Below, piece after piece: positions 2,062 to 19,881 of a DNA stretch of 20,416 nt; the stretch's first letter is position 1, and the number at the start of each line of letters is the position of its first letter. Position numbers and translations under genes: made by a program. This DNA is from a virus, in the IMG/VR virus record IMGVR_UViG_3300029309_000435, positions 1-20,416 of that record. One strand, written 5' to 3'. The notes under the pieces were generated by a model. That model ran no database searches. It saw only the letters and a program-made list of their open reading frames with translations, and was not told the origin of the DNA.

Positions 2062-4110
2062 ATGAAAAAGAAGTATAAAAGAGCAGGTACTACTTCTGAA
2101 CGTCAAGACTATCGCAAAGGTGGTCAAGTTTCTAAAGAAGGTCACGAAAGAGAAAAGCTTTTACCCGGTGGTATGCCGGCAGGCATGGGTGCTGATTTTA
2201 GTAGGCAATATGCTCAAGCTGGAACACCAAATCTTTCAAATTTAGATTTTACTAATTTAAGAATACCAGAAGTTAACATACCAGTCCAATCAACTCCTGC
2301 AGCTCAAGCACAAGCAAATACCGGAGAAACAATGTCATTAACAGAAGAACAGAAACAAAATAATAGAGAAGGTTTAGCAACAGCAGCATCAGCACAGTTG
2401 CCTGAAGCTGCTAAATTACCTGATGCTCAACAAGTATCTACTAATATTTCTCAACAGGGAACTGTTATGGATACACCTACAACTGTAGGAACAACTCAAA
2501 TAGCACAAGCTCCACAGGAACAGGCAGCTACGGTAGGAACTATACAAACTGTACCAGCTCCAACAGTTGCACCAGTAGCTACAGTACAGCCTACTCAAGT
2601 TGTACAAGCTCCAACAGTAACTGCTGCACAAACAACATTATCAGAAGATGAATTAGCAAAAACTGCAGGAGTAGATAGGATACCAACTATTGATGCTGCT
2701 CAAGTACAAATACAAGAAGGAGCATTAGCTCAACGAGTAGTAGGTCAATTAAGTCCACAATCTATTTCAACTGCAGCTCAAGCAAGCGGTACAACTTTAG
2801 CAAGAGTTACTAGAGCTAAAAAACAATTAAGAACTGCTGGATTAGATGAACAAACAATTAATCAATTAGGTGATAATCCTGAAGCATTAGAAGATAGATT
2901 AACTGATTTTACTGAAGCACAAAGAGGTGTTATTGAAGGTTTACCTGAAGAAGCATTAATAAGTAATCAGATGGATACTTTATTAAAAGGTATTGAAAAT
3001 GGTACAGTGCCTACATGGGCACAACCTGCAGTAGCAGCAGTGGAACAGATGTTAGCCCAAAGAGGTTTAGAAGCTTCTTCAGTAGGTAGAGATAATTTAA
3101 TAAATGCTATAATACAATCAGCAGTTCCATTAGCTCAAGCAAATGCTCAAGCTATTCAACAATCAGTAGCTCAAGAGAAAAATTTAATAGCTCAAGAATC
3201 TTTAGCTAATGCTCAACTACGACAACAGACAGCATTACAAAATGCACAAAACGTATTTAGTTTAAACATGGCTCAGTTTAACGCTGACCAGCAAACAGAG
3301 TTAGCTAATAGTAAATTTTTACAGACTGTATCTTTGACTAATGCTAGTACAGAGCAGCAAGGAATTATTCAAAATGCTGTATTACAATCTCAAGCAAATT
3401 TAGTAGAAGCCGATGCAAATACAAAATTAGCTATACAAAATTCTAAAGCTTTTTTACAAACAGATATGGCTAATCTTAGTGCTCAACAACAAGTAAATGT
3501 ATTACAAGCTCAACAAGAGCAGCAAAGAATGTTATCTAATCAAGCTGCTACAAATGCTGCTGCACAATTTAATGCTACTAGTGCAAATCAAACAGAGCAG
3601 TTTATGGCTAACTTAGCATCTCAAATAGCACAGTTTAATACTACACAAAGAACCGCAACTGCACAATTTAATGCTAGTCAAGAAAATGCTGCAGCAGCTA
3701 GGAATGCTGGAAGAATTGCAGATTCTATTAGATTAAATGCACAACTAGCTACACAGATTGACCAATTTAATGCTAATCAAGATTTTGCTAGGAGTCAATG
3801 GAATGCTCAAAATGCTGCTGCTGTAGAAGCAAGTAATACTCAATGGAGAAGACAAGCCAATACTTCAAACACTGCAGCACAGAATGCAGTTAACTTACAA
3901 AATGCTATGAATGCTTTTAATTTAAGTAGTCAAGCACAAGCTTTTCTATGGCAAGAACTAAGAGATAATGCTGATTATGTATTTAGAGCAGAGCAAGGTG
4001 AACGAGAAAGAATAGCTGCGTTAGTAAACACAGCAGTTTCTAGCGACCCTGCAAGTTATAAAAATACAACATCTTTAAAAAATTTAATAGGAGCAATAGT
4101 AGAGAGTTAA
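2062..4110 (+). CDS. Ala/Gln-rich repeat protein, probable virion or ejection protein
   Basis: 682 residues, very rich in Ala, Gln and Asn. The N-terminus (residues 1-50) is basic and glycine-rich (GGMPAGMGADF). Residues about 75-200 are a low-complexity Pro/Thr/Gln/Val linker, probably disordered. Residues about 240-345 look folded and helical. Residues about 350-630 are long helices with a recurring (A/D)QFN motif at residues 404, 501, 523, 534 and 567, suggesting an extended coiled coil or fibre. No enzyme motif is seen. It lies in the virion gene run ahead of the giant ejection protein, so an internal core, ejection or tail component is likely; this is inferred from position and composition. 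Confidence 0.75.
   Translation: MKKKYKRAGTTSERQDYRKGGQVSKEGHEREKLLPGGMPAGMGADFSRQYAQAGTPNLSNLDFTNLRIPEVNIPVQSTPAAQAQANTGETMSLTEEQKQNNREGLATAASAQLPEAAKLPDAQQVSTNISQQGTVMDTPTTVGTTQIAQAPQEQAATVGTIQTVPAPTVAPVATVQPTQVVQAPTVTAAQTTLSEDELAKTAGVDRIPTIDAAQVQIQEGALAQRVVGQLSPQSISTAAQASGTTLARVTRAKKQLRTAGLDEQTINQLGDNPEALEDRLTDFTEAQRGVIEGLPEEALISNQMDTLLKGIENGTVPTWAQPAVAAVEQMLAQRGLEASSVGRDNLINAIIQSAVPLAQANAQAIQQSVAQEKNLIAQESLANAQLRQQTALQNAQNVFSLNMAQFNADQQTELANSKFLQTVSLTNASTEQQGIIQNAVLQSQANLVEADANTKLAIQNSKAFLQTDMANLSAQQQVNVLQAQQEQQRMLSNQAATNAAAQFNATSANQTEQFMANLASQIAQFNTTQRTATAQFNASQENAAAARNAGRIADSIRLNAQLATQIDQFNANQDFARSQWNAQNAAAVEASNTQWRRQANTSNTAAQNAVNLQNAMNAFNLSSQAQAFLWQELRDNADYVFRAEQGERERIAALVNTAVSSDPASYKNTTSLKNLIGAIVES
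3262..3936 (+). repeat. Degenerate QFNA-type repeat region within the 682-aa virion protein
   Basis: The motif (A/D)QFN(A/T) occurs five times in about 170 residues, with related AFN and SQWN variants, embedded in Ala/Gln/Asn-rich helix. Spacing is irregular (97, 22, 11 and 33 residues), so it is a degenerate protein-level repeat rather than a tandem DNA repeat. Confidence 0.6.
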
Positions 4111-4126
4111 AATATAGGAGAATATT

Positions 4127-5278
4127 ATGGGATTATTTAGTGGAATAAAAAAAGCTTTTAAAAAAGTAACCGGAGCAGTTAAGAAAGTTGTGAAGGGAGT
4201 TGCTAAAGGAGTTAAAAAAGCTGTTAAAGGTGTAGCTAAAGTTGTTAGAAAAATAGGAAAGGGTGTAAAAAAATTAGCTAAAAATAAATATGTACGGATG
4301 GGATTAATGATAGCTGCTGCAGTTACGTTGCCTATGTTTGTACCTGCGATAGCTGCTTTACCTGCCGTAGCTGCAGGAGCTGTTACCGGTGCTATTACTG
4401 GTGGTGCTGGAGCTTTACTTTCAGGTGGAGATTTAAAAGATGTATTAAAAGGTGCTGCATTTGGTAGTGCTACAGGAGCTGCTTTTGCTAAGATTGGTGA
4501 AGCAATTAAAACTGCAAAAGCTGCTAAAGTTGGAGGAGAAAGTCTTGATTTAACTCAAGGTAAATTAGATGCTATGGGAGCAGATGTTCCTGACATCGCT
4601 GCTACTGCTACTGATGCTGCTCCAACTATTGATATTTCTGGAGACGTTGTTTCTCGTACAATACCTAAACCTGATTTTCAATTTGACCCGACTGAGGTTA
4701 GTAAGTTTTCAATAGACCCTAATATTAATCCATTAGATGGGCTATCTCCTACAGGGGTAACGACTACTGCTAATGTTAATATTCCAAGTGAAACCTTAGT
4801 TTATCCTAATCAGATAATGAAACCGGGAGCTCCAGCTCAGTCTGTAACAATTACCAAACCGGGTATTGATACTTCAGTAATTGCTCCTGCTAAAAGCGTA
4901 AAAGATTCCATAACAATGAGTCAGAACTTTGCTAAATATGGAAGCACTGAAGCTACATTAGGACAAAAAATAGCTTCTAAGTTTAAAGAAGCGTTTAGTC
5001 CAGAAAAATTAACAGATACTGCTTTAGGCGTTGCTGAAGATGCAGTTGTAGGAGGTTTAAGAAATCTGGCAGCAGGAGACCAAGAAGAAGCTTATCAACA
5101 AGGAGGTAGACAATATCAAGCAGGTGTTGTTGACCCATTATTACTTCAACAAGTACAGTATGCACATTCACAAGCATCGGTAGACTTCAATACTAGTCAT
5201 CAGAATTTACTGTATGGTACAGCAGATATGTCTCATTACACGCCTTTACAAACTCAAGAAATACTTAGGATATCATAA
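4127..5278 (+). CDS. Virion protein with cationic amphipathic N-terminus and hydrophobic Gly/Ala segments
   Basis: 383 residues. Residues 6-54 are a striking lysine-rich stretch in which KK or KG alternates with Val/Ala/Phe (for example KKVVKGVAKGVKK), resembling a membrane-active amphipathic helix. Residues about 58-130 are hydrophobic and Gly/Ala-rich (MGLMIAAAVTLPMFVPAIAALPAVAAGAVTG as two adjacent spans, then GGAGALLSGG), plausible membrane-inserting helices. The rest is polar, with a Gln/Tyr-rich stretch near residues 320-360. A ribosome binding site (TAGGAG) precedes the start. Basic plus membrane-inserting character and a position among virion genes suggest a DNA-ejection protein that helps cross the host envelope. 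This is inference; no family was recognised with certainty. Confidence 0.75.
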   Translation: MGLFSGIKKAFKKVTGAVKKVVKGVAKGVKKAVKGVAKVVRKIGKGVKKLAKNKYVRMGLMIAAAVTLPMFVPAIAALPAVAAGAVTGAITGGAGALLSGGDLKDVLKGAAFGSATGAAFAKIGEAIKTAKAAKVGGESLDLTQGKLDAMGADVPDIAATATDAAPTIDISGDVVSRTIPKPDFQFDPTEVSKFSIDPNINPLDGLSPTGVTTTANVNIPSETLVYPNQIMKPGAPAQSVTITKPGIDTSVIAPAKSVKDSITMSQNFAKYGSTEATLGQKIASKFKEAFSPEKLTDTALGVAEDAVVGGLRNLAAGDQEEAYQQGGRQYQAGVVDPLLLQQVQYAHSQASVDFNTSHQNLLYGTADMSHYTPLQTQEILRIS

Positions 5279-6018
5279 TGGCTAAAAAACAAATAAAACC
5301 AGTATCACAATTTGTTACTAGAAATTTATCAGAATCTATTTCAAGAACAGTAGATGAAGCTGCTGAGTCTGGATTAGATTTTGAAGAATTTATAAGAGAG
5401 CTAGATAAAGAACCTGTAAATAAAATAGCTGAAAATAAAGAAAATCAACAAGATTTAGATGAGTTGGTATCAATGGTTGGTAAGGGTGTATCAATTCCCG
5501 GACAGTCTTTAACTAATTCTCCAGACCAAAAATATCCTTGGGAAACTCCTCCTAAACATAGTAACCCTAGAGAAGCACTTACAGCTATAACAACAGAGTT
5601 ATTAGAAACTGAAAAGGTAGGGTTCTTAATAGAAAGTTTAGCAGAAGGAATGGCAGTTACAGATATTACAACTTCTATTTTATTTGCTAAGTTTTATCAA
5701 GGAGAAATAAATCCCGATGTTATGTTATTATTAATTGAGCCAGTTATGTACACTATAATGTCTATTGGTTCAGAAGCAGGTATTGAATATAACATTGAGC
5801 CCGGAGATGTAAATGAAAGTTTTGATGAGCCGGATGAAGAATTTGAAAAAGGAAAGTTGTCAGAATTTAATAAAGCTATTGGTAAAGTTGGTGCAGAAGC
5901 TAAACCTAATATAAATAATAATATTAAAAGTGAAATACTACCTAAAAGTTTATTAGAAAAAATAGAAGACAAAGGTCCAGAAATTAGAAGTTTATTAAAT
6001 AAACAAGAAGAGGAATAA
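5278..6018 (+). CDS. Probable virion structural protein, conserved-looking, function unknown
   Basis: 246 residues, starting with TAATG overlap with the previous stop, so translation is probably coupled. The middle holds an IPGQSLTNSPDQKYPWETPP segment (about residues 73-94), then helices with a mildly hydrophobic stretch near residues 145-165. I associate this kind of proline-rich YPWE segment followed by a helical domain with structural proteins of marine phages, but I cannot name the family. The C-terminus is acidic and charged. No catalytic motif or signal peptide is seen. Position suggests a core or ejection role. Confidence 0.75.
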   Translation: MAKKQIKPVSQFVTRNLSESISRTVDEAAESGLDFEEFIRELDKEPVNKIAENKENQQDLDELVSMVGKGVSIPGQSLTNSPDQKYPWETPPKHSNPREALTAITTELLETEKVGFLIESLAEGMAVTDITTSILFAKFYQGEINPDVMLLLIEPVMYTIMSIGSEAGIEYNIEPGDVNESFDEPDEEFEKGKLSEFNKAIGKVGAEAKPNINNNIKSEILPKSLLEKIEDKGPEIRSLLNKQEEE

Positions 6019-6019
6019 C

Positions 6020-7432
6020 ATGGCAGAAGAATTTGACTATTTAAAAGATTCTAAATTTGGTAAGTTAGCTACTAATATTCTTGATAAAAGAGAAAAAGAT
6101 AATGATAGATTACTACCAACTGGAGGAAATTTATTAGCGTTGTTCGCAGACGTTGCTTCTAAATATATAACTAAAAAGAATAGAGATTTACAACAAGAAC
6201 AAGCTACAAATATTGAAACTTTAACAAGGCAATATAATGATGTTATCGGCACGAGAAAAGATTTTTTTAATAGTAGTGCTATAAAAAAACAGAGAGAAGA
6301 TTATCAGCTTTGGAAAAATCCAGAAACAAAACAGAAAGCAAGATTAGCAAAAGCTATAGAATATTTTAATCAAGATAAAGATATGATAGAAGAGTTTGGA
6401 AGTATGAATCCTTATAATGAATATTTAAAACTTCCTAAAAATTCTAAAAACGCTGAGTTAATGAATGATGCACTAGAGCTTCTAATGGGTCAAGCAGATG
6501 TATATTTTGAAAGTATAAATGACGATGCTATAGTCGTGCCTACACAAGCAGAATATTTAAGAGAAGTTAAACAAGCTTTTGAAGCTGCACTAAAGGAAGC
6601 AAGGAATGACCCTACTAAAAAAACTTTTTTACGAAAACAATTTTTAAAAGCATTTGGAAGAGATGAAAAAGGTAATCCTAGATTTGGTTTAGTCAATCAA
6701 GATGAGTTAAAAAATCTAAGAGTAAATGCTGAAGAGGCTGCTGGTATTGGTAGAGATAATCCTTTAGCAATGGTAAGTGATTTAGATATAGAGCAAAGAG
6801 AAGCAGATAAAGCTAGAGTTTTTGAACGACCTGATTTAAGTGAGTTTGATTTTCTTACTCAAAAACCAAAAAGTTCTAAACCTAATCCTGTTGATAGACG
6901 TGTTTTAATAGATGCTAGTTCTGACGTTAGGAGTCTTTTTAATGACCAATACAAATTTGATATTGTAAATAATGATGGAGCTAAGAAAAATTTGTCTTTC
7001 TATTCTGTATACAAAGGTCTTAAAAACTATAATGGTAGTAATCAAATGCAAGGTCAATATAACCAAACGAATCTTATATATGATGTATTAACCCTATCAA
7101 AAACTGCTAGAGCAGAATTTGAAAAAACAAATTACGATGGTGATGTAAGAAGTGCTGAATCATTTTTAGTACCTGCGATACAAGAAGTATTTGATAGAAT
7201 GTCTAACGGACTGCCTTCTTTAGGCTTTGAAAATACTATGGAGGTAATAGCACCTGATGAAATGGTTGAGTTTACTAGCAATGGTACAGACTATAAAATG
7301 TCAATACAAGAAGTTGCTGAGACATTTATTGGTAAATCCAATGAAGAAAAAAACGACTGGATTGATAATATAGAATTTGAACCGAAGTATAAATTTGTAT
7401 TTGATGTGTTAAGACGTAGGGATTATGAATAA
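6020..7432 (+). CDS. Probable internal virion/ejection protein, 470 aa
   Basis: 470 residues, highly charged and mostly helical, starting two bases after the preceding stop. It holds a basic N-terminal helix region (residues about 5-60), a central helical domain with alternating Lys and Glu/Asp, and a C-terminal domain ending FEPKYKFVFDVLRRRDYE. No signal peptide, membrane segment or catalytic motif is seen. It sits immediately before the giant 1695-residue protein and overlaps its start, a position like that of the middle core protein gene (gp15) of T7-like phages. Homology to gp15 is not visible by eye; only the order supports the analogy. Confidence 0.75.
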   Translation: MAEEFDYLKDSKFGKLATNILDKREKDNDRLLPTGGNLLALFADVASKYITKKNRDLQQEQATNIETLTRQYNDVIGTRKDFFNSSAIKKQREDYQLWKNPETKQKARLAKAIEYFNQDKDMIEEFGSMNPYNEYLKLPKNSKNAELMNDALELLMGQADVYFESINDDAIVVPTQAEYLREVKQAFEAALKEARNDPTKKTFLRKQFLKAFGRDEKGNPRFGLVNQDELKNLRVNAEEAAGIGRDNPLAMVSDLDIEQREADKARVFERPDLSEFDFLTQKPKSSKPNPVDRRVLIDASSDVRSLFNDQYKFDIVNNDGAKKNLSFYSVYKGLKNYNGSNQMQGQYNQTNLIYDVLTLSKTARAEFEKTNYDGDVRSAESFLVPAIQEVFDRMSNGLPSLGFENTMEVIAPDEMVEFTSNGTDYKMSIQEVAETFIGKSNEEKNDWIDNIEFEPKYKFVFDVLRRRDYE

Positions 7433-10400
7433 TGTCTAATAGGGAAAAATCAATACAAGAGCTGATTGCAGAAAAAGCAAGTACTCCTAAAACAACAGAA
7501 ATTTCTTTAGAGTCTATACCTGAAACAAACTTAACTGAAGAAAAAGTTGTAGAAGGTTTAGAAGAGAAAGATGACATACATATAGAACTAGACAAGAAAA
7601 ATAGACTTCTAGATGATGACATTTCTGAATTTAGAAAATTTAATTATGGTGCAGAACAAGAAACTCATATCCTAGGAAATTTATGGAGACAAGGAAAAGC
7701 TCTTTATAGAAGTGCAACTTCTGATGAGTTGACTTTAACTTACTCAGAAGCTGCTCGTCAAATAGAAGCTGAAAGACAAGAAGCTATTTTTGAAAAATTT
7801 CCAGAGTTTAGAGGTAAAGAAGAAGATGCTGCAGTAATCGCTGGAAGAGTAGCTACAGGATTTCTTGACCCAGTTGCTCTTGCAGTTCCTTGGACTAGAA
7901 TAGCTCAAGCAGGTAGAATAGCTACCATTACAGCAGGGGGAGCTTTTTCTGCTGGAGATATAGCACTTAGAGAATATTCTTTGTATGGAAGGGTAAGTCC
8001 TTATAGTGTAGGACTTGCTGCAGGTTTAGGTGCTGGAGCAACAACTATTAGTTCCGTAATAGCAGATAAAATTAATAAGGCAATTCCCAGTGGTAAATTA
8101 ATTACTGTTGATGAAACTGGTAAGCCAGTAATTACTAACATGTCTAGGATTGATGCTGAAGATACGTTAGGAGATTTAAGTCCAGAAATAAAAAGAGGTT
8201 TGGAATTAGTTTCAAATGATGTATACAAAGTTTCTGGTCCATACATTGCTAGGTTTTCAAAAGATTTAGAAAGTTTAGGAGTTAAATATAATAAAAGATT
8301 AATAGCTAGAAATGAATTAAAAAAGCATCAAAAACAATTAGAACAATTAGAAAGAATTGGCTTAGATAAACAAGTAGAATTATTTAAAGGTGGTCAAGTT
8401 GAGCAGGTTAAAAAGATAATAGATGCTCAGAAAAAATTAGTAGAACAGTATCAAAAAGAAATTGATGATATTCTACTAAAACAAATGCCGGAAGATTTAG
8501 GCGTTGTTGGTTTTGAATCTTTTAAAAGAGCTTATCAAGCAGGATTATTAAAAGGAAGGATTGGTGAACAACTAACACGAGCTTTTGTACAAGAAGCAGT
8601 TAGACCGTTAATAGGAGCAGTTGGTGGCTTTGCTGCTGGAAGTGCTATGGGTGCTAATGATAATTCTGCGTATATGTCAGCAGCTATAGGAGCTGGTATA
8701 ACGATGGGAATTATATCTAAAAGATTAGAGCTTGATAAAGGTATACCTAAAGAAGTAGTATCTTTCTTTAAAAAGGAAGGAGAAAAAGTTTTTAAGCGTA
8801 ATTGGAGAACTAATTTAAATTTAACTTTATTTGGTGCTGGAACTCACGCTTCTTATATGCAATCTCGTAGCTCAGTTTTAAGAGACTTTAGTGAAGATTT
8901 ATATGGATATAGAGGAAATGCTTACGATTTAGGTAAGCCTATGAGACCAAACATAGAAGAGTTAAGGTACACGAGTAATGATTATTTTAGAAAGCAAGTA
9001 TTTGACCTTTTACAAGATGTTGACGATGACACTATTTTAACTGCTGGTAGAATAATACAACAGCAAGATGCTCCTTCTAATATGAAGTATAACTTTATAG
9101 AAAAAGGAGATTTAGATAATAAACAAGCTGTAGAATTAGCTAATAAATTTATAGGTATTAGAAAAGAAATAAAAGACTATGCAGAAAAAGCAGGTCTTAC
9201 TTTTACTGAATTAGATTCTTATGGATTAACGCAGATACTAGATTCTGAGGAAGTTAAGAAAATGGGATTTGCGAATGCTCAAAAAATAATAGCTCAAGCT
9301 TTTATAATACAAAGTAAAAACCTAAGTACTAAAGATTCAAAAGTAAAAGTATTGACAAAAAAAGAAGCTAATAGATTAGCAATAAAATATTTAAATCATT
9401 CTGATAATGTTAGAAGACAAGAGGTATTAGACGAAGTTAGTATAACTGATGACACTTTTAAACTTATTAAGAATGATGGTAAAAAAATTAAAAAAGGAGA
9501 AAGTCTTTTACAAGCTTCTAAATATTTAGCAAACGAAAGAACTTTAGTAGACCCTGAAGCTAGAGCATTTGCTAAAAATCTTTTTATTCAAGACCCAGAG
9601 TTTACGACACTAAGACTTTCAGAGAATATTGTACCCGTTGCAGAGTTTGCTAGGCGTTATGGAGAAAAAGGTCAAGGACTAAGAAAAGTTTTTGCTGATA
9701 TTAAAAAGTATTACAGTCAGTTTGGTAATGTAGATACTAATTCTTCTTTACAAAAATTAGTTAGAGAAGATTTTGAACAAGTTAGAAATAGTGTAAATGC
9801 TTACTTTGGTGTCTATGATTTAAGAGGTGGTATAAGAGGTAGTGATGCATTTAAAAGTGTAATGTTAACTTTACAAACTTTATTATCAACTACAAAACTA
9901 ACTAAAGTTGCTTTACCTTCTTTAGGAGATTTACTACAAGTAATACAAAACAGTGGCTTCAAGGCAGCAGCTAATTCTGCATATTTACAAATGAAGCAAA
10001 GAGGTTCAAAAGCAATAAAACCTTCTGCTGCTTTAGCTCAAAGAAGCCCGACTGATGAAACCGGTATAATTTTTAAAGAGCCTATTTTTGGTAGAAAATT
10101 TGGAAATAGAAAATATAGAAATACTTTAGAAAGAGAGCTTAGTGATTTTTCACAAGCAGCTACTACTCGTTATCAACAAGGATTAATAAACTTTCAAGGA
10201 AGATTTTTTGAGATAGTTCAATTAGGTAGAGTAACTAGATTTGCTAGAGAATTTGCTTATGATGCTGGAGCATTTAGAATTTTTGATTTAGGTAAAAAAG
10301 CTGCTACAGGTAACTTAAGTAAAGCACAAATAAGAGAAATAAATCTTTTAGGTTTTAAACCTGAAGAAATAAAATTTTTAAGTAAGTTTAAAAGTATGGA

Positions 10401-12519
10401 TGATGCTTTTAAAAATCCTGAAGGTAAAATAGTTATTGACATAGCTGGAAGAAGGTCTGCAGATAGAGATGCATTAATACCACAGATAGGTAATAGAAGA
10501 TTATTTTCTCAATCTAGAGACCCTATGATGAAATTTGCTGGAAGTTTTTTATCTTGGGCACAAGCAAAAGCTACTCAAACTAACTCATTGGTTAGAAGAA
10601 TAGAGGATGGAGATGCTAAATTAGCTTTAATGATGTTAGCATCTTTGCCTATATATGGAGCAGTTAGAAGTTTACAAATATCTATGAACTCAAGTGAAGA
10701 ATTTAGAGAGGAGCATCCTAACTTTTTATCTGGATTTGAAAACGAAGGAGACCTTAGAAAGTTTATTGCAGACTCACTAATTTTTAGTGGGCAAACTTTA
10801 CCATTTAGTATAGATAAATTAGTTAACTTTGTGAAGTATAGTAATTCAGATATAACTGAATCTATCTATCCTGTACTAGGATTTCTAAACGATTTATTTG
10901 GAGCAGTTAGAACTGGAATTAAAGGTAAACCTTTTACCGGTATTAATAGATTAGTTGAAACTGTAGTTCCTTTTGGTAAGGATTTTACTCGTTCTGAAAA
11001 AGTTGGAGAGGCTCTAGGTCTTCCCGATACTATCGAAGGGGAAGCTAAATTTAGGGATTCAGATAGAGCTCTAAGACTAAACTTTGTAACGGGTGGAGAA
11101 GTTGAAGGAGAAGAAGTTCCATTTACTCAAGAAAATCCTGCAGATAGAATTAATCCATTGACAGGAGAACCATACAGTCAAACTTCAAAAGGTGTCTTAG
11201 CTACTTTAAAAGATAGACAAGAAGATAGAATTCCTAAAACCTATGGTGGTTTGTTAAATAATTTACAAAGACGTAAAAAGTTTGCGTTAGGTGCTACTGT
11301 TGCTGGACTACTTACTAGAGAAATACTTGACCAATTACCTAACAAAGTTTATCGTGGAGGCTCAAGTAGAATTATTACCAGTAAAGAAGGAACTTCATCA
11401 GTGTTTGCAACTCCAGATAAGATAATGGCTGACTCTTTTGCTGACCCTAAATCTGTTGCGAAGTCAATGGTAACAGATGGTGAGTCTTTAAAAATGAAAG
11501 ACAAACTTAATCTACATGAAATTGATATAAGTGGTGCTAAAAATCCTTATGTACTAGACCAACCTAGTGAGGCAATGAAAATTAGAATAGAGAGAGCTTT
11601 GATGAAGGAGGGGAATAGTGATGCTAGAAATGATGCGTTAAATTCTTTACTAAATCCAGAAGATTTTGATATAAGAGTAGCCTCCTCTGATTTTTATAGG
11701 GTAAACAGAGAGGTTGGTAAGTTTTTAAAAGACGAAGGCTATGATATAGCTTTAGATAGTAGAACTTTGCAAAAAGGTTTTAATAATAATCCAGAAGCAG
11801 AGTTATTTATTTTAGGTAAGTTTCCTGTAAAAGCTATACCTAGACTAAAAGTTAAAGGTCAGGAAATTGAAGGTGGAGATTTAGTTACCTTTAAAGATGT
11901 AGCTAAAAAAGTAGACGAGCCACCTACAGTAAAAGTTCCAACATGGTTTAAAGAAACTCAAGTTAAAACTGATGTTAACCCTGCTGATGCTCAAAAAACT
12001 CAAGTAGGTATAACCTCTGGAACTTATAAAAAAGTAGTGCCTTTATTAAAGACAGGTAATACTTTAGACTTTGGTGCAGGTTTAGGTAAAGGTGCTAAAA
12101 TATTAAAAGCTGATAGCTATGAGCCGTTTCCTAAAAAAGGTTTTGAACCTACCTTTACAGAAACATCTGCAATACCTAATAGTTCCTATGATAATGTAGT
12201 CAGTTTAAACGTTCTCAATGTTGTTAAACCTGATGTTAGAAATGATATAGTTTTAGATATAGGTAGAATTTTAAAACCAGAAGGTATTGCTATTATAACT
12301 ACCAGAGGCTCTGACATTTTTGGTAATAAAAATAATATTACTAAAGGTGTCTTGTCAAACTTAGAAGAAGGTGCTATAATAACAAGTAGTGGCACTTATC
12401 AAAAAGGTTTTACTAATCCAGAGTTAAAAGAATATGTTAGTGGCTTACTAGGCGATATGTTTGAAGTAGAAAACATTACTGGTCTAGGTAAGGCAGGTAT
12501 AAAAGTTACAAAATTATAA
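7432..12519 (+). CDS. Giant internal virion (ejection) protein with C-terminal ART-like and methyltransferase-like domains
   Basis: 1695 residues, TAATG overlap with the previous gene. The N-terminus is charged; residues about 135-210 and 390-430 are Gly/Ala-rich hydrophobic segments; residues 290-350 are coiled coil. Residues 800-1180 include a conserved-looking core around FAGSFLSWAQAKATQTNSL (1035-1053), typical of large phage ejection proteins. The size and position match the giant last core protein (gp16-like) of podoviruses. The C-terminus differs: residues about 1305-1470 look like an ADP-ribosyltransferase fold (VYRGG, SSVFATP, ADSFADP, then AELFILGKFPVKAI), and residues about 1530-1640 resemble a class I methyltransferase (LDFGAGLGKG, then SYDNVVSLNVLNVV and LKPEGIAIITTRG). 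No lytic transglycosylase motif was seen. The ejection role is inferred; the two C-terminal folds are motif-level calls. Confidence 0.85.
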   Translation: MSNREKSIQELIAEKASTPKTTEISLESIPETNLTEEKVVEGLEEKDDIHIELDKKNRLLDDDISEFRKFNYGAEQETHILGNLWRQGKALYRSATSDELTLTYSEAARQIEAERQEAIFEKFPEFRGKEEDAAVIAGRVATGFLDPVALAVPWTRIAQAGRIATITAGGAFSAGDIALREYSLYGRVSPYSVGLAAGLGAGATTISSVIADKINKAIPSGKLITVDETGKPVITNMSRIDAEDTLGDLSPEIKRGLELVSNDVYKVSGPYIARFSKDLESLGVKYNKRLIARNELKKHQKQLEQLERIGLDKQVELFKGGQVEQVKKIIDAQKKLVEQYQKEIDDILLKQMPEDLGVVGFESFKRAYQAGLLKGRIGEQLTRAFVQEAVRPLIGAVGGFAAGSAMGANDNSAYMSAAIGAGITMGIISKRLELDKGIPKEVVSFFKKEGEKVFKRNWRTNLNLTLFGAGTHASYMQSRSSVLRDFSEDLYGYRGNAYDLGKPMRPNIEELRYTSNDYFRKQVFDLLQDVDDDTILTAGRIIQQQDAPSNMKYNFIEKGDLDNKQAVELANKFIGIRKEIKDYAEKAGLTFTELDSYGLTQILDSEEVKKMGFANAQKIIAQAFIIQSKNLSTKDSKVKVLTKKEANRLAIKYLNHSDNVRRQEVLDEVSITDDTFKLIKNDGKKIKKGESLLQASKYLANERTLVDPEARAFAKNLFIQDPEFTTLRLSENIVPVAEFARRYGEKGQGLRKVFADIKKYYSQFGNVDTNSSLQKLVREDFEQVRNSVNAYFGVYDLRGGIRGSDAFKSVMLTLQTLLSTTKLTKVALPSLGDLLQVIQNSGFKAAANSAYLQMKQRGSKAIKPSAALAQRSPTDETGIIFKEPIFGRKFGNRKYRNTLERELSDFSQAATTRYQQGLINFQGRFFEIVQLGRVTRFAREFAYDAGAFRIFDLGKKAATGNLSKAQIREINLLGFKPEEIKFLSKFKSMDDAFKNPEGKIVIDIAGRRSADRDALIPQIGNRRLFSQSRDPMMKFAGSFLSWAQAKATQTNSLVRRIEDGDAKLALMMLASLPIYGAVRSLQISMNSSEEFREEHPNFLSGFENEGDLRKFIADSLIFSGQTLPFSIDKLVNFVKYSNSDITESIYPVLGFLNDLFGAVRTGIKGKPFTGINRLVETVVPFGKDFTRSEKVGEALGLPDTIEGEAKFRDSDRALRLNFVTGGEVEGEEVPFTQENPADRINPLTGEPYSQTSKGVLATLKDRQEDRIPKTYGGLLNNLQRRKKFALGATVAGLLTREILDQLPNKVYRGGSSRIITSKEGTSSVFATPDKIMADSFADPKSVAKSMVTDGESLKMKDKLNLHEIDISGAKNPYVLDQPSEAMKIRIERALMKEGNSDARNDALNSLLNPEDFDIRVASSDFYRVNREVGKFLKDEGYDIALDSRTLQKGFNNNPEAELFILGKFPVKAIPRLKVKGQEIEGGDLVTFKDVAKKVDEPPTVKVPTWFKETQVKTDVNPADAQKTQVGITSGTYKKVVPLLKTGNTLDFGAGLGKGAKILKADSYEPFPKKGFEPTFTETSAIPNSSYDNVVSLNVLNVVKPDVRNDIVLDIGRILKPEGIAIITTRGSDIFGNKNNITKGVLSNLEEGAIITSSGTYQKGFTNPELKEYVSGLLGDMFEVENITGLGKAGIKVTKL
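11344..11841 (+). other. ADP-ribosyltransferase-like domain in the ejection protein
   Basis: Residues about 1305-1470. The order of motifs is VYRGG (candidate NAD-binding Arg at 1308), SSVFATPDKIMADSFA (Ser-Thr-Phe-like strand and helix), and a closing strand AELFILGKFPVKAI. This matches the layout of ART-like domains in phage polyvalent proteins (Y-H/R-G, then F-T-P with an A-x-x-F/Y helix, then a final V/F-F-x-x-x-x-I-K strand). The catalytic Glu or Gln of the third motif is uncertain; Glu1455 or Glu1457 is a candidate. Confidence 0.5.
12019..12516 (+). other. Class I SAM-methyltransferase-like domain in the ejection protein
   Basis: Residues about 1530-1695. Motif I is LDFGAGLGKGAKIL (1545-1558), an acidic post-strand residue follows in SYEP (1562-1565), and the SYDNVVSLNVLNVV strand (1585-1598) is followed by a helix and LKPEGIAIITTRG (1614-1626), the usual pattern of a small Rossmann methyltransferase. 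No DPPY/NPPY-type motif for DNA amino-methylation is seen, so the substrate cannot be guessed. Confidence 0.65.
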
Positions 12520-13991: not shown

Positions 13992-14213
13992 CTACTTTAT
14001 AAAATCTAGTTCACTCTGAAAATAATTATGCAAGGTGGCAAATTTCTTTTGCCCCGCCTGTAGGATAGTTTTAACTATTTCATTCTCATCTCTAGTTTTA
14101 AATACCTTATCTACCTCTTCTACTGGTAGCATACTTAACTCTGTAACAATATCATTGTTAGCAGTAAGCACTACTTTAAAACTTATTAGATTAGCTTCTT
14201 TCTTCTTCGCCAT
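13992..14213 (-). CDS. Small protein downstream of nrdB, unknown function
   Basis: 73 residues, N-terminally basic (MAKKKEANLISFKVV), with one alpha-beta-like fold and no membrane segment or catalytic motif. It begins inside the last codons of nrdB, overlapping by 23 bases, and a GGAGGA ribosome binding site five bases before the ATG supports the start. It is the last gene of the - strand operon, so it is probably co-expressed with ribonucleotide reductase. Nothing shows its role. Confidence 0.75.
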   Translation of the reverse strand: MAKKKEANLISFKVVLTANNDIVTELSMLPVEEVDKVFKTRDENEIVKTILQAGQKKFATLHNYFQSELDFIK

Positions 14214-15189
14214 TATTCTCCTCCATAGATGCGAAAGTTATCTGGTCTTGTCTTCCTCTTAATCCTGCCTTCATGTATGAAGTAGCACGACCCTCAAAGA
14301 AGTTTTGATGTTCAACTCCCATAACTTCATCTAACCAACCTAACGGATTCTCCCTCTGGTCAAAGTTTGTTTTTAGTCCTAGTTGTAGCAGTCTCCTATC
14401 TGCTATATATCTATTATATGCATACATATCTTTCTTAGTTAGTCCTTGTATGTCTCCCATATCAAACACTAAGTCTAAGAATTTATCTTCAAGTTCTACC
14501 ATGTGTCTACATATATCGTATAATTCTTTTTTAAATTTGTCAGTCCATATTTCTAAGTTCTCTTGAATAAACTCTCTAAAAAGTTTGGTCATAGCTTCAA
14601 CGTGCATTGACTCATCTCTGATAGAATAGGTAACTATCTGACCCATACCTTTCATTCTACCGAACCTTGGAAAGTTTAACAAGATTGCAAAGCTACTAAA
14701 TAGTTGTAGTCCTTCGGTAAAAGCCGAATAGACTGCTAAAGTTTTTGCAATACTTTCTTTATCTCTTTTAGTTGTTTTTAAATTACTAATGTACTCGTGT
14801 TTATTAGACATTTCTTCGTATTCAGAAAAAGCTTTGTACTCTATCTCAGGCATACCGACAGTGTCTAATAATAAACTATAAGCATGTTGATGAATAGATT
14901 CCATGTTAGCAAATGAACCCATCATCATTCTTGCTTCTGGTTTTTTAAATATTCTCATGTATCTATCTATGTAACCAGAGCCAACATCTACATCAGACTG
15001 TGTAAACAACCTGAATATCTGTGTTAATAAATTCTTTTCATTGTCTGATAACTCTTGCCAATCTTTAACATCTGTATGTAAAGGTACAGACTCAGGCATC
15101 CAGTGCATTTGATTTTGTAATACATAGTAATCAAACATCCACGGGTTATCAAATGGTTTGTAATAATCTCTTGTTCCTAACAGACTCAT
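14191..15189 (-). CDS. nrdB: Ribonucleotide reductase class I beta subunit (R2)
   Basis: 332 residues. It houses the di-iron/tyrosyl radical cofactor that starts reduction of ribonucleotides by NrdA. All expected ligands are readable by spacing: Asp66, Glu97 and His100 (in NMESIHQHAY), Glu159 (in FTEG), Glu193 and His196 (in RDESMHVE), and the radical Tyr104, seven residues after Glu97. This excludes the metal-free class Ie and radical-Tyr-less class Ic types by motif. The start overlaps the preceding stop as TAATG with an AGGAGGAG ribosome binding site. The phage uses the pair to enlarge the dNTP pool during replication. nrdA and nrdB are separated by three inserted small genes, one a cytochrome c. 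Confidence 0.97.
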   Translation of the reverse strand: MSLLGTRDYYKPFDNPWMFDYYVLQNQMHWMPESVPLHTDVKDWQELSDNEKNLLTQIFRLFTQSDVDVGSGYIDRYMRIFKKPEARMMMGSFANMESIHQHAYSLLLDTVGMPEIEYKAFSEYEEMSNKHEYISNLKTTKRDKESIAKTLAVYSAFTEGLQLFSSFAILLNFPRFGRMKGMGQIVTYSIRDESMHVEAMTKLFREFIQENLEIWTDKFKKELYDICRHMVELEDKFLDLVFDMGDIQGLTKKDMYAYNRYIADRRLLQLGLKTNFDQRENPLGWLDEVMGVEHQNFFEGRATSYMKAGLRGRQDQITFASMEENNGEEERS

Positions 15190-15398
15190 TAAAACTCCTC
15201 CTGTAATATTTCTAATTTTTCAGAAGCACTAGCATATTTTTTTACAAGTTCATCCATAGATTCGACCACATTAGGATGGTCTGCTACGGCTACTTTATGT
15301 TCAAAAAATACCTCAAGATTAGCTTTAGCTTCTGCTTTTTCTGCTTTGTATTTTGTTTCTAGAGCTTTATACAATAGTGCTCCTGAATATTTAGTCAT
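15189..15398 (-). CDS. Small helical protein upstream of nrdB, unknown function
   Basis: I place the start at 15398 (69 aa, MTKYSGALLYKAL) because GAGGAG lies nine bases upstream; a longer frame starting at 15440 would overlap the membrane protein gene and lacks that signal. The protein is Ala/Lys/Glu-rich and probably a helical hairpin or coiled coil (residues 10-35 and 48-67). No catalytic residues or membrane segment are seen. It is coupled to nrdB through a TAATG junction, so a role tied to nucleotide metabolism is possible. Confidence 0.75.
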   Translation of the reverse strand: MTKYSGALLYKALETKYKAEKAEAKANLEVFFEHKVAVADHPNVVESMDELVKKYASASEKLEILQEEF

Positions 15399-15411
15399 AA
15401 TAATTTTCTCC

Positions 15412-15636
15412 TCATGGTTTAAGAAATTCTGGTTTGTCAAAAAAAATAAACATTGTTATAAAAGGTAATATACCTATACCGATTACAAAAATAGATGGTA
15501 ATATTACTGCCCAAAACATAGGATTCTTTGTCATAAAATCTAGGTCTTTATTATTCATACCTTTCTTTTTATCTTCTTCAGTGTAATCTGGATACGATAA
15601 AGAATCTTCAAATCTTTTGACATGTTTTGGTTTCAT
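15412..15636 (-). CDS. Single-span membrane protein co-translated with the cytochrome c
   Basis: 74 residues. A polar, charged N-terminus (residues 1-38, Lys-rich) is followed by one hydrophobic span at about residues 41-66 (FWAVILPSIFVIGIGILPFI onward) and a short tail FFDKPEFLKP. The positive-inside rule puts the N-terminus in the cytoplasm and the tail outside. Its ATG overlaps the cytochrome stop in an ATGA junction, so the two are probably translated together and may act together, for instance as a membrane dock for the cytochrome or as a small oxidase-type subunit. I do not recognise a family. Confidence 0.75.
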   Translation of the reverse strand: MKPKHVKRFEDSLSYPDYTEEDKKKGMNNKDLDFMTKNPMFWAVILPSIFVIGIGILPFITMFIFFDKPEFLKP

Positions 15637-16064
15637 AAAGTATCAATGTAAGCTTGTAAATTTTCCATATCTTCAAGAGTTAGGTTAGCAGCTTGACCCC
15701 ACATGAGAGCAGATTGTGCACCCCTAGTCTCTCCATTTTTATATTGCATTAACATTTTTACAATAGATGTACTTCCAGATAATTTTGGTCCAATACCTCC
15801 TTCTCCTTTCATACCATGACACATATTACAATTAACATATATCTTAGCACCTTTATCAGCAGGTGTTTCTGTTTGCATTGCAACTCTTTTTGCTTCTAGT
15901 TGTTCTATAAATGTACCATACTTTGCAGTATATTCTTCATAACATTCTCCCCAACAACCATGTACATCTCCATAACCAGACACGTCTGCGTTTATAATAG
16001 TTGTATAAAGTATTCCACCGATACCTAAAACTCCAACTAATAACATTGCTATACTGTGTTTCAT
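15633..16064 (-). CDS. Mono-haem c-type cytochrome, membrane-targeted
   Basis: 143 residues from the ATG at 16064, chosen because GAGGGA sits four bases upstream and the ATG follows the nrdA stop; an in-frame GTG at 16076 inside nrdA is less likely. Residues 5-25 are a hydrophobic signal or anchor (IAMLLVGVLGIGGILYTTI, possible cut after INA). Residues 70-143 are a class I cytochrome c: CNMCH at 79-83 (Cys79 and Cys82 bind haem, His83 is axial), GIGPKLSG, then a probable axial Met121 in ALMWGQAANLTLEDMENL and a final helix. Two extra cysteines (37 and 41) may form a disulfide. It needs host periplasmic haem ligation. It would carry electrons in respiration; the redox partner is unknown. Confidence 0.92.
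   Translation of the reverse strand: MKHSIAMLLVGVLGIGGILYTTIINADVSGYGDVHGCWGECYEEYTAKYGTFIEQLEAKRVAMQTETPADKGAKIYVNCNMCHGMKGEGGIGPKLSGSTSIVKMLMQYKNGETRGAQSALMWGQAANLTLEDMENLQAYIDTL
15816..15830 (-). other. Haem c attachment motif CNMCH
   Basis: Read on the - strand, these five codons give Cys-Asn-Met-Cys-His, the CxxCH signature for covalent haem c attachment. It is the only CxxCH in the protein, so one haem is expected. Confidence 0.95.
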
Positions 16065-16065
16065 A

Positions 16066-17961
16066 TTATCCCTCACAAGCTATACAGTCCACTTCATCTA
16101 GTTTTATTCGTGGAACTTTTATATTAACATTTTCTGCTGCTCTAGCTGCATCAGACCTAAAGTAGTATAGTGATTTTAATTTATGCATACCATACCAATG
16201 CACATCATTTACATACTGCATGTATTCATCATGGGCATTTTGTTCTTCAGTTGCTTTTGGTAACACGAAAAATAAATTTATTGATTGGCTTTGACAGAGA
16301 AACTCTTGTCTTTTATGAGCATGTTCAATAATCCATATTTGATTTATTTCATTAGCAGTTTTAAATAATTCTTTTTCCGTATCATCTAACATAGAAAGAT
16401 GTTGTACTGAGCCGTTATTACCGGCAATATCTTTCCAAACGTTGTCAAGTTCTTCCCCTTTTAATCCTTTACTTTTTAAAACTTTTTCCAAGTATTTATT
16501 TTTTACTTGATAACTACCTGATAAAGTTTTGTGAGTAAACACATTTGCCCTGTAAGGTTCTACTGAGGGAGACGTACCAGCACATATAATACTACTACTA
16601 GCGTTAGGAGCAACGGCAAGGAGATTAGCATTACGCATCCCAGAACCAGATACATCAGGTGCTTCACCACGAATATCAGCCAGTTCCTCACTAGCTTTCG
16701 TAGCTTTCTTTTTAATGTGTTTAAACGCTTGATAGTTGAATCCCGTAGCTTGGATTCCTTCAAAAGGTATGCCGTTTGATTGTAGATAGGCATGAAAACC
16801 CATCGCACCCAATCCCAAAGAACGCTCTCTGTAAGCTGAGTAAGCAGCTTTTGTAAATCCTTCTTTACCATCTTTGACATATCCTTTAAATCTTTTAAAG
16901 TTTGCATTATATTCTCCCAGTTGTGATGTGTCAATAGCATTCTCAATAAAATGTTGTAGAACATTATCTAACATAGTTATTAAATCTTTTATAAAGTAAT
17001 CATCTTTAGACCATTCATCATAATGTTCTAAGTTAACACTAGACAAACAACATACTGCTGTTCTTTCTTCGTTAGTAGGTAGAGTTATCTCTGAACATAA
17101 GTTGCTTTGTTTTATTTCTAAGCCTAAATCTTTTTGTCCTTGTGGTAGGGCATCATTACAGTTGTCTATGTTTATCATATAAGGTTCGCCTGTTTCTGCT
17201 CTAGCGTAGATAATCTGCCACCATAACTCTCTAGCGTTTATAGTTTTAACTGCCTCGTTTGTTTTAGGGTCTATTAATCTCCAGTCTGCATCATCTCTAA
17301 CAGCTTTAAGAAAATCATTAGTGATGTTAATACCATTGTGTAAGTTTAAACACTTTCTATTTATATCTCCACCAGATTCTTTTCTCATGTTTATAAACTC
17401 TTCAATCTCTGGATGCGATATATCCATATATGCAGCATAGCTACCACGTCTAGTTACGCCTTGATTAAAGGCTAACATCTGAGAATCAACTACATGGATG
17501 AATGGAATACTTCCAGTAGAACGACTCCCGCTAGAAGTAGAAATACCATTACTCCTAATATCTCCCCAGTATCCACCAATTCCACCACCTGAACTAGCCA
17601 ACCAAATATTTTCGTCATAGTGAGAAGATAAACCGTCACGACTATCGGGAACATAATTAAGAAAACAGCTAATGGGAAGACCACGAGTTGTTCCCCCGTT
17701 ACTAAGTATAGGAGTGCTAAACATGAACCAACAATCGGAACTGTAGTTATACAGTCTTTGAGCCATTTCATAATCTGTAACACCCTTGAAAGTGGCAGCA
17801 AATACTGCAGCCCTAGCAAAAGCTTCTTGTGCATGTGTTTCTTCCTCCCAGAAATATCTATCTCTTAGTGTATCTAAACTAAACTTGTCTAGCTTTTTTT
17901 CTTTTTCGTAATTTATTTCAATACCTAAATAAGGTTTTTGTCCTACTTTATCTTCTACCAT
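16066..17961 (-). CDS. nrdA: Ribonucleotide reductase class I alpha subunit (R1), lacking the ATP-cone
   Basis: 631 residues; makes deoxyribonucleotides with NrdB. Catalytic elements are visible: Cys99 (GLPISCF), N-x-C-x-E with Asn287, Cys289 and Glu291, a second redox Cys at 304 or 305, the radical-transfer tyrosines 599-600 (SLYYF), and a C-terminal Cys626-x-x-Cys629 that takes electrons from thioredoxin or glutaredoxin. The first 30 residues run straight into the R1 core; the roughly 100-residue N-terminal ATP-cone of many NrdA proteins is absent, which is known to remove dATP feedback inhibition. The ribosome binding site is weak (AAGAA-like) and the gene follows the DUF3310 gene by five bases. 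The next gene, a cytochrome, begins at its stop. Confidence 0.97.
   Translation of the reverse strand: MVEDKVGQKPYLGIEINYEKEKKLDKFSLDTLRDRYFWEEETHAQEAFARAAVFAATFKGVTDYEMAQRLYNYSSDCWFMFSTPILSNGGTTRGLPISCFLNYVPDSRDGLSSHYDENIWLASSGGGIGGYWGDIRSNGISTSSGSRSTGSIPFIHVVDSQMLAFNQGVTRRGSYAAYMDISHPEIEEFINMRKESGGDINRKCLNLHNGINITNDFLKAVRDDADWRLIDPKTNEAVKTINARELWWQIIYARAETGEPYMINIDNCNDALPQGQKDLGLEIKQSNLCSEITLPTNEERTAVCCLSSVNLEHYDEWSKDDYFIKDLITMLDNVLQHFIENAIDTSQLGEYNANFKRFKGYVKDGKEGFTKAAYSAYRERSLGLGAMGFHAYLQSNGIPFEGIQATGFNYQAFKHIKKKATKASEELADIRGEAPDVSGSGMRNANLLAVAPNASSSIICAGTSPSVEPYRANVFTHKTLSGSYQVKNKYLEKVLKSKGLKGEELDNVWKDIAGNNGSVQHLSMLDDTEKELFKTANEINQIWIIEHAHKRQEFLCQSQSINLFFVLPKATEEQNAHDEYMQYVNDVHWYGMHKLKSLYYFRSDAARAAENVNIKVPRIKLDEVDCIACEG
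16069..16074 (-). promoter_or_regulatory. Ribosome binding site that sets the cytochrome c start
   Basis: GAGGGA on the - strand lies in the last codons of nrdA, four bases ahead of the ATG at 16064. This favours a 143-residue cytochrome over a start at the upstream GTG (16076), which has no such signal at normal spacing. Confidence 0.7.
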
Positions 17962-18507: not shown

Positions 18508-19363
18508 TCGTAACCTCTATAACTTTAGGTGGTCTTGGTGTTTGTGTGAGATAACTATATCCTCTTGAATATTTAAATACTCTTAGACCTAATCCATCGT
18601 TAGCATCTGAATGACATTCAAACTTATGTCTGCAATATACACATTCTTTAGGAAGTTTCATATTGCCAGAGCTGCCTTCTGGTTCTGGATTATAACATCT
18701 TTGAGGTGGTTTGTCAAGCTTTATTGCTTTCTTAACATCTCTTATTTTCTTTTTAATATTAGGTTTATCAAACTCAGAAGGTCTGAACAAAGCTAACTCT
18801 CCGGTCTCTTTATTCATAGCTAAGAAGCCGCCTTTTTGTGTACCTTCAGCTTCTTCGTAACCTGCAAGTTGTGGAAGATAGCCGAACGTATCTTGCTCTG
18901 CTAACGTACCGTCTTTAAATTTCTTGAAAGCAAAGCCTGAAGCAGTCTTAATATCTACTACTTCTCCGTCTATAGTACAATCCATGTGTCCTTTAATACC
19001 AGACACGGATACTTCTTTCTGTTCATTACCTACTTTATGTCCAGAAATCTTTACTAAAAATAATAATACTTCTTCTAATAAATGTCCATATAAAAATTTA
19101 ATAAAAACTGGAGCAGGTAAAGACTCAGTAGACTCATTCTCTGATTTTAAATCATACCATAATTGTCTAGTAGGTTTACCAATGTTAGACATTCTTAACA
19201 TGTCAGAACTTCTTGGCGATGGGTTAGCCCAATGATGTAGTACTTCTTTAATGCTTTCTCCTAGAGCATCTATGTCTTCAGAACTAGCATCAAGAGGCTT
19301 TCCTTCTCCTAAAACAGAAATCTTAGAATAAATATCATCTACTAAGTTATCTAAATTTTTCAT
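18476..19363 (-). CDS. PD-(D/E)XK nuclease, Cas4/RecB-like with likely Fe-S cluster
   Basis: 295 residues. The nuclease core is visible: Glu97 or Glu98 in GHLLEE, Asp128 in GHMDC, the Asp137-x-Lys139 of VVDIKTAS, and a QxxxY motif (Gln165, Tyr169) typical of the RecB/Cas4 exonuclease group. Four cysteines, Cys223 and a C-x2-C-x5-C set at 241, 244 and 250, match the Fe-S cluster layout of Cas4 and AddB nucleases. No CRISPR array or cas1/cas2 is present here, so it is most likely the phage's recombination or replication exonuclease, filling the place of T7 gp6. Its ATG overlaps the previous stop in an ATGA junction. The Fe-S cluster is inferred from cysteine spacing. Confidence 0.88.
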   Translation of the reverse strand: MKNLDNLVDDIYSKISVLGEGKPLDASSEDIDALGESIKEVLHHWANPSPRSSDMLRMSNIGKPTRQLWYDLKSENESTESLPAPVFIKFLYGHLLEEVLLFLVKISGHKVGNEQKEVSVSGIKGHMDCTIDGEVVDIKTASGFAFKKFKDGTLAEQDTFGYLPQLAGYEEAEGTQKGGFLAMNKETGELALFRPSEFDKPNIKKKIRDVKKAIKLDKPPQRCYNPEPEGSSGNMKLPKECVYCRHKFECHSDANDGLGLRVFKYSRGYSYLTQTPRPPKVIEVTNEWQKSKKTT

Positions 19364-19881
19364 ATTGTTTCAATTATATTCTTAGCATCTTGTTTGCTAA
19401 TTTTAAACCATTCTCCTTTTTTCTGCTCAGAGTTTTTCTTTAGTAGCTTATGTGCTTTTTTCTCAGCATCTTTTCTATCATTAAAAAATCTACTGTAATG
19501 TAATTTATAATCTCTGAAAGGACTAGAGGTTTGGTATTGATTACATCTATCTTTAGAATCAATAGCCATACCAACTTTTACCCAACCTTTCCAAGATGGA
19601 TTACTTATAATGTATATATCTCCGCTTTCTTCTTTGTTATATAACATCTTAGCAATCTTACTGATAGCTTGTGGTTTCTTTATTTTGCCGAAAACTAATT
19701 TAGTTAAGTTACCTCCTTGCTGTAAGTATCCTTCGATAGTTCTAAACTTTCTTTTATAAAATACTAAACCATCCTCATTAAGATGATGATTGATACCTCT
19801 CTTTCTCCAAGTAGTTCCATCATACATTTTTCCATCTGCTCTGATGTCTCCGTTCTTAGGTTTTATATTAATGTGTTTCAC
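19360..19881 (-). CDS. GIY-YIG endonuclease-like protein with T5orf172 domain
   Basis: 173 residues from a GTG start at 19881, supported by an AGGAG about nine bases upstream and a 14-base overlap with the polymerase stop; the next ATG would remove 18 residues. Residues 87-160 carry the domain: GDIYIIS, VKVGMA with Lys102 and Gly104, Arg112, an A-E-K-K-A-H segment with Glu140 and His144, and the closing GEWF (156-159). T5orf172 proteins are divergent GIY-YIG nucleases seen in phages, some as free-standing homing enzymes. Residues 1-80 are basic and may bind DNA. Location between DNA polymerase and exonuclease fits a homing insertion or a replication-linked nuclease; which one cannot be told. 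Confidence 0.85.
   Translation of the reverse strand: MKHINIKPKNGDIRADGKMYDGTTWRKRGINHHLNEDGLVFYKRKFRTIEGYLQQGGNLTKLVFGKIKKPQAISKIAKMLYNKEESGDIYIISNPSWKGWVKVGMAIDSKDRCNQYQTSSPFRDYKLHYSRFFNDRKDAEKKAHKLLKKNSEQKKGEWFKISKQDAKNIIETI

Follow-up and report, generated by a model that had tools for sequence, protein, structure and literature searches.

What is a gene for a c-type cytochrome doing between the two ribonucleotide reductase (RNR) genes of a phage? The question is raised by a viral stretch of 20,416 nucleotides (IMG/VR record IMGVR_UViG_3300029309_000435; hereafter the window). Its minus strand reads polA (3' part), a GIY-YIG-type (T5orf172) gene, a Cas4-type exonuclease gene, two small genes, nrdA, the cytochrome gene (cyt), a membrane protein gene (tm74), a gene for a 70-aa protein and nrdB. 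The features of the locus are as follows.

14191..15189, minus strand: nrdB, ribonucleotide reductase small subunit (PF00268, E=8e-74)
15189..15401, minus strand: 70-aa phage protein, phrog_1811, a common nrdB neighbour
15412..15636, minus strand: tm74, 74-aa single-span membrane protein (open reading frame; ATGA overlap with cyt)
15633..16064, minus strand: cyt, predicted mono-haem class I cytochrome c of 143 aa with an N-terminal anchor (Pfam, AlphaFold and Foldseek agree)
15702..15704, minus strand: codon of Met121, probable sixth haem ligand (reading frame; invariant in 49 homologues)
15816..15830, minus strand: codons of the haem-binding motif C79-N-M-C-H83 (Cys79, Cys82 and His83 invariant in 49 homologues)
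16066..17961, minus strand: nrdA, ribonucleotide reductase large subunit (profile match)

The cytochrome reading frame runs from an ATG at 16064 to a stop at 15633-15635, and a GAGGG resembling a ribosome-binding site lies a few bases upstream of the ATG, within the 3' end of nrdA. An earlier note on this DNA had described tight overlaps on both sides. This is correct for the downstream side, where the TGA of cyt and the ATG of tm74 indeed share an ATGA junction, but not for the upstream side, where one base separates the nrdA stop codon TAA (16068-16066) from the cytochrome ATG. The tm74 frame (ATG at 15636, stop at 15412-15414) does not overlap the next gene (15189-15401), which has its own Shine-Dalgarno-like GGAG. 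Elsewhere in the window, the T5orf172/GIY-YIG-type gene (19360-19881) sits between polA and the exonuclease gene, a position taken by other genes in relatives, and a 1695-aa protein (7432-12519) has a sub-threshold methyltransferase match in its C-terminal part (PF13489, E=0.005).

Profile searches and structure prediction, both proposed in the earlier note, agree on the identity of the protein. It matches the cytochrome c family PF00034 with E=4.2e-7 (31.6 bits against a cut-off of 21.3), and its AF2 model (pLDDT 88) has bacterial c554/c552 as best Foldseek matches (probability 1.00), while the predicted fold also matches bacterial c546/556. Structural comparison of the model with c554 gave a VIA Z of 13.7 and an rmsd of 1.6 over 77 residues. 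Chain K of the P. aeruginosa bc1-cbb3 supercomplex 8smr, which is cytochrome c4 by profile search, reached a VIA Z of 12.4. The reading as a mono-haem cytochrome c with the motif CNMCH (residues 79-83) was therefore right. All 49 homologues compared, from phages and from cells, have C79, C82, H83 and M121. This supports the earlier suggestion of Met121 as a ligand, and we regard it as the probable sixth haem ligand. With a CxxCH motif, a profile score above cut-off, a methionine C-terminal of the motif and the corresponding fold, the protein is best described as a predicted class I cytochrome c, haem attachment itself being a prediction. Cytochrome c4 with its two haem domains was ruled out, as there is one CxxCH in 143 aa. 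Likewise, the cbb3 subunit CcoP (PF13442, TIGR00782) was rejected, because the PF13442 score is 25.9 bits against a cut-off of 27 and there is one haem motif; the window protein gave no ccoP profile match.

The protein consists of a hydrophobic helix (residues 2-25), a helical segment with the invariant C37 and C41 (the CxGEC pair) and the haem domain (67-143). The N-terminus had been left as a signal or an anchor segment. As helix 2-25 lacks a conserved cleavage motif, a membrane anchor appears more likely than a cleaved signal. Attachment of c-type haem takes place on the periplasmic side, and an anchored cytochrome should hence face the periplasm. Pairwise dN/dS values are 0.04-0.49, which indicates purifying selection. 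The gene lies in phage genomes, has cellular homologues and is under purifying selection, as expected of an auxiliary metabolic gene.

The search of viral databases and related phages that had been called for recovered 66 loci with a window-type cytochrome in IMG/VR, on T7-like, T5-like and T4-like backbones and in at least six types of neighbourhood. T7-like contigs carry the gene arranged as in the window. The T5-like contigs have a DNA polymerase nearest to that of Proteus T5-like phages (45%), and the contig type of L127 encodes a DNA polymerase B (gp43) nearest to cyanomyoviruses (49%) together with uvsX-like and gp41-like genes that were named by eye. Three further neighbourhood types have the capsid gene gp23 on the contig (L111/L114, L120 and L119/L121), and eight contigs in all carry gp23 together with cyt. 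In the tree, the phage copies of this first set form one clade (support 100/99) apart from 31 cellular sequences, which, for independent contigs, excludes chance. The T7-like and the T5-like copies each require at least two entries. One locus is a mosaic (L030), with NrdA and NrdB 95-96% identical to those of the window and a cytochrome of 76%. That an assembly chimera or mis-binned host DNA accounts for the gene is hardly credible. It is true that the cytochrome is known from metagenomic contigs only and lacks an INPHARED record, but the same arrangement occurs in many independent metagenomes, the phage copies form clades of their own, a T4 capsid gene lies on the same contigs, and the GC content of the loci (33-38%) resembles that of the window (34%). 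We therefore reject contamination on the basis of the independent contigs, the clade and the gp23 linkage, and agree with the earlier view of a phage operon gene.

A second phage-only clade, again supported at 100/99, was revealed through the loci linked to an alternative oxidase (AOX) described below. Relatives of its representative are encoded by 352 IMG/VR stretches, of which the best 80 were examined; the remainder may include members of the first clade. This second clade is the commoner one, and its order is mostly nrdA-nrdB-cyt-glutaredoxin. Among the best 80 of the 352, nrdB lies within 4 kb in 63 and a glutaredoxin-like gene (grx) in 60, usually in the order nrdB-cyt-grx; the glutaredoxin of L372 is Pfam-confirmed. 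Linkage to RNR consequently recurs across backbones, with cyt on one or the other side of nrdB. The T5-like phages and some of the T4-like ones have cyt away from the nrd genes. Neither the window cytochrome nor the second-clade query had a match in INPHARED, PHROGs held no match to the cytochrome, and a fold search of BFVD returned no viral cytochrome. As 50,697 phage records gave no match, the gene would be missed by reference-based annotation.

The space between nrdA and nrdB is a variable cargo slot. In the closest isolate, HTVC115P, the two genes overlap with no gene between them, and neither cyt nor tm74 is present. In 80 relatives retrieved by way of nrdB, the two genes lie 2 to 1109 bases apart. 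The inserts, named from sequence by eye, are an HNH-type endonuclease gene, genes for an apparent 2OG-Fe dioxygenase or DNA methyltransferase, or other small genes. The product of tm74 had been taken as the partner of the cytochrome, and we looked for the pair in related phages as advised. The pair is not constant. Among the close relatives, nearly identical phages have tm74 without cyt (L053, L055, L059), and others have cyt without tm74 (L008, L037, L131). The two genes are thus separable cargo, and tm74 as an obligate partner is rejected. Tm74 gave no noteworthy match in Pfam, NCBIfam or PDB, and a search of 294 genomes from the order of genome G001, run without a positive control, yielded no cellular homologue. 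Its structure model has a pTM of 0.41, and by charge it is probably oriented N-in. In one small viral contig (L069, 3361-4467) tm74 is convergent with a class III adenylate/guanylate cyclase-like gene that has a membrane part. A different conserved single-span protein of 69-70 aa, tm69, adjoins cyt in T5-like and T4-like contigs (L108 6524-6730, L121 10614-10820 and others), with weaker matches elsewhere in L125, L127 and L134.

The cellular proteins most similar to the phage cytochromes are stand-alone membrane cytochromes from marine Gammaproteobacteria. Proteins that share the anchor-CxGEC-haem architecture are encoded in Litoricola/HIMB30/LSUCC0096, in Halioglobus and in other genomes of the order of G001, altogether in 28 of the 391 genomes sampled from this order (E<=1e-18); at the loci read, their genes stand alone. 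In a sample of 398 genomes spread evenly over the phylum, none was found outside this order (E<=1e-15). The phage proteins are about 36-47% identical to these homologues over their full length. Related but more distant cytochromes, which adjoin a cytochrome c4-like gene, are found in a probable SAR86 order (assigned on genome size, GC and gene content only), and SAR86 was rejected as the direct source as far as it was sampled. For the window phage a gammaproteobacterial host is our best guess. This conflicts with the backbone, since the window NrdA and exonuclease are closest to those of pelagiphage HTVC115P (61% and 53%), and the closest backbone isolate infects SAR11.

In several phage lineages an AOX gene (PF01786, E 1e-70 and 3e-66) lies near cyt, and the phage AOX sequences contain the di-iron motif EAENERMHL. 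Five arrangements were observed: AOX-methyltransferase-cyt (L106, L112, L113, L120), cyt-tm69-ThyX-AOX (L115, L116, L119, L121, L143, L144), tm69-cyt-AOX (L117, L118), cyt-AOX (L339, L354) and AOX-cyt (L365, L370). Starting from AOX, a cytochrome of the family was found within 5 kb at 32 of the 80 loci examined and was absent from the flank at the other 48. The window has no AOX gene, and the T7-like contigs have none near cyt. A small transmembrane gene following AOX is, in general, a weak pattern. Among the cellular genomes compared, the phage AOX is closest to the copies in Halieaceae-like genomes (mostly 64-71%). It is slightly more probable than the contrary, in our judgement, that marine phages of heterotrophs share a mobile respiratory module of anchored cytochrome and AOX, which moves among T7-, T5- and T4-like lineages and sits with the genes for DNA synthesis so as to rebuild the electron transport of the host for phage replication; in one contig, an SdhB-like protein joins AOX instead.

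The contig in question is L390 (IMGVR_UViG_3300020463_000001, 200,733 bp, with gp23), a T4-like contig in which the gene for the SdhB-like protein (Fer2_3 and 4Fe-4S dicluster; 3948-5570) overlaps the AOX start and is preceded by that of an FeS-assembly protein (PF01883). Several further genes were observed in these neighbourhoods. A contig with cyt and AOX also has an IscU-like gene (NifU_N, PF01592; L339 8401-8838). A gene for a TctA transporter, with a possible binding-protein gene after it, lies a few genes from AOX and cyt (L120 5382-7921, also L106 and L113), and a conserved membrane protein of about 133 aa is encoded near AOX or cyt (L354 4172-4573, L370, L427, L452). An AOX about 60% identical to that of L120 is annotated as a hypothetical protein in Phage C48C1 (OQ984149, Kyanoviridae; L151 8037-8588).

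From the computed evidence, namely sequence family, predicted fold, invariant ligands, purifying selection, phage location, repeated horizontal transfer and linkage to RNR and AOX, we propose with a probability of roughly 0.6 that the product of cyt is a mono-haem cytochrome c anchored in the membrane on the periplasmic side, and that phages acquired its gene from a marine gammaproteobacterium and retain it for an auxiliary electron carrier in respiration. That many ocean phages have an intact cyt, usually within the RNR operon and often with AOX as a neighbour, suggests that they supply parts of the respiratory chain of their hosts during infection. Export, haem loading, redox partners, host and benefit we infer. 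The cytochrome would be translated together with the RNR genes, exported and loaded with haem by the host Ccm system. By the most likely route, it would then accept electrons from the bc1 complex or cytochrome c4 and deliver them to a haem-copper oxidase of the cbb3 or aa3 type. AOX, where present, would oxidise quinol and pass excess electrons to oxygen as an overflow. The benefit is probably that NADH and quinol oxidation and ATP supply persist while host genes are silenced and dNTP synthesis is at its height. A carrier between bc1/c4 and the haem-copper oxidase would be the simplest role for the protein, and it is favoured by the invariant ligands, the purifying selection and a fold near that of the cytochrome c4 in the bc1-cbb3 supercomplex. 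An effect of the phage on respiration and proton-motive force is plausible. However, carrier and AOX do not readily form one path, as AOX bypasses cytochrome c and both would compete for quinol electrons.

The same co-occurrence with AOX, the classical overflow oxidase, could instead point to protection: the cytochrome might help to remove reactive oxygen or nitrogen species, or to prevent over-reduction of the quinone pool, and so limit damage when infection disturbs electron flow. An AhpC-type peroxiredoxin co-occurs in the T5-like cyt contigs, and the glutaredoxin neighbour would fit as well. Yet a mono-haem protein with an invariant Met ligand is not itself the usual di-haem peroxidase, and no peroxidase partner gene is directly adjacent; we consider protection unlikely. 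More doubtful still is a decoy that throttles or redirects host respiration, for example by favouring the phage AOX route or by excluding other phages at the membrane. The phage clades stand apart from every cellular sequence compared and small membrane proteins such as tm74 occupy the same slots, but the haem-binding and ligand residues are under purifying selection, as for a working carrier.

The position inside RNR operons, as nrdA-cyt-nrdB in T7-like phages and nrdB-cyt-grx in the second clade, might suggest a direct link to the reductase, such as redox or oxygen supply to its di-iron cofactor. This is very improbable (the earlier note had called it unlikely), because NrdA and NrdB are cytoplasmic and the haem would be on the periplasmic side. 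Moreover, the T5-like and some T4-like phages keep cyt apart from nrd genes, and the slot takes unrelated cargo. Since the gap is a general cargo slot, the position among the RNR genes may be due to no more than expression timing and mobility.

Phage electron-transport genes are already a known kind, and the parallel with cyanophage electron carriers drawn in the earlier note is real. A mobile cassette of cyanophages combines plastocyanin with PTOX (PMC3037559), and plastocyanin was proposed to feed cytochrome oxidase during infection (PMC10452541). In both cases a small phage-borne electron carrier often travels with a quinol oxidase. Here, in contrast, the carrier is an anchored haem c protein of gammaproteobacterial type located among RNR genes, and the oxidase is an AOX with gammaproteobacterial relatives rather than a cyanobacterial PTOX. 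A plastocyanin-type blue copper carrier is ruled out, and the cytochrome at most works like plastocyanin while belonging to a different family. It shares fold, haem motif and ligand with bacterial c554/c552/c4-type proteins, and anchor and CxGEC architecture with the stand-alone membrane cytochromes of Litoricola/HIMB30 and Halieaceae, from which the phage copies differ by their separate phage-only clades. A c-type cytochrome-related gene on viral contigs is known from phage soxCD, found on two contigs with SoxD copies that lack one or both haem motifs (PMC8190135); SoxD belongs to sulfur oxidation, whereas the haem motif here is invariant and the gene widespread. Virus-encoded quinol oxidases also include prasinovirus alternative oxidases (PMC12584671) and cydAB of one hydrothermal-vent virus (PMC12043954); the excerpts consulted report no viral cytochrome c partner, and the hosts differ. 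Searches of the open-access PMC literature found no report of this cytochrome in phages of heterotrophs. Judged by the open literature searched, an intact c-type cytochrome this widespread, with AOX and outside cyanophages, counts as a new variant. That phages control the energy metabolism of their hosts has been documented in cyanobacteria, where it is driven by light. If our reading is true, a cytochrome c and terminal oxidase shared among phages of heterotrophs would extend such control to aerobic respiration in the ocean, and would raise the testable question whether DNA synthesis by these phages requires that electron transport be repaired or rerouted. The cytochrome, with AOX where present, would then be the heterotroph-phage counterpart of cyanophage plastocyanin and PTOX.
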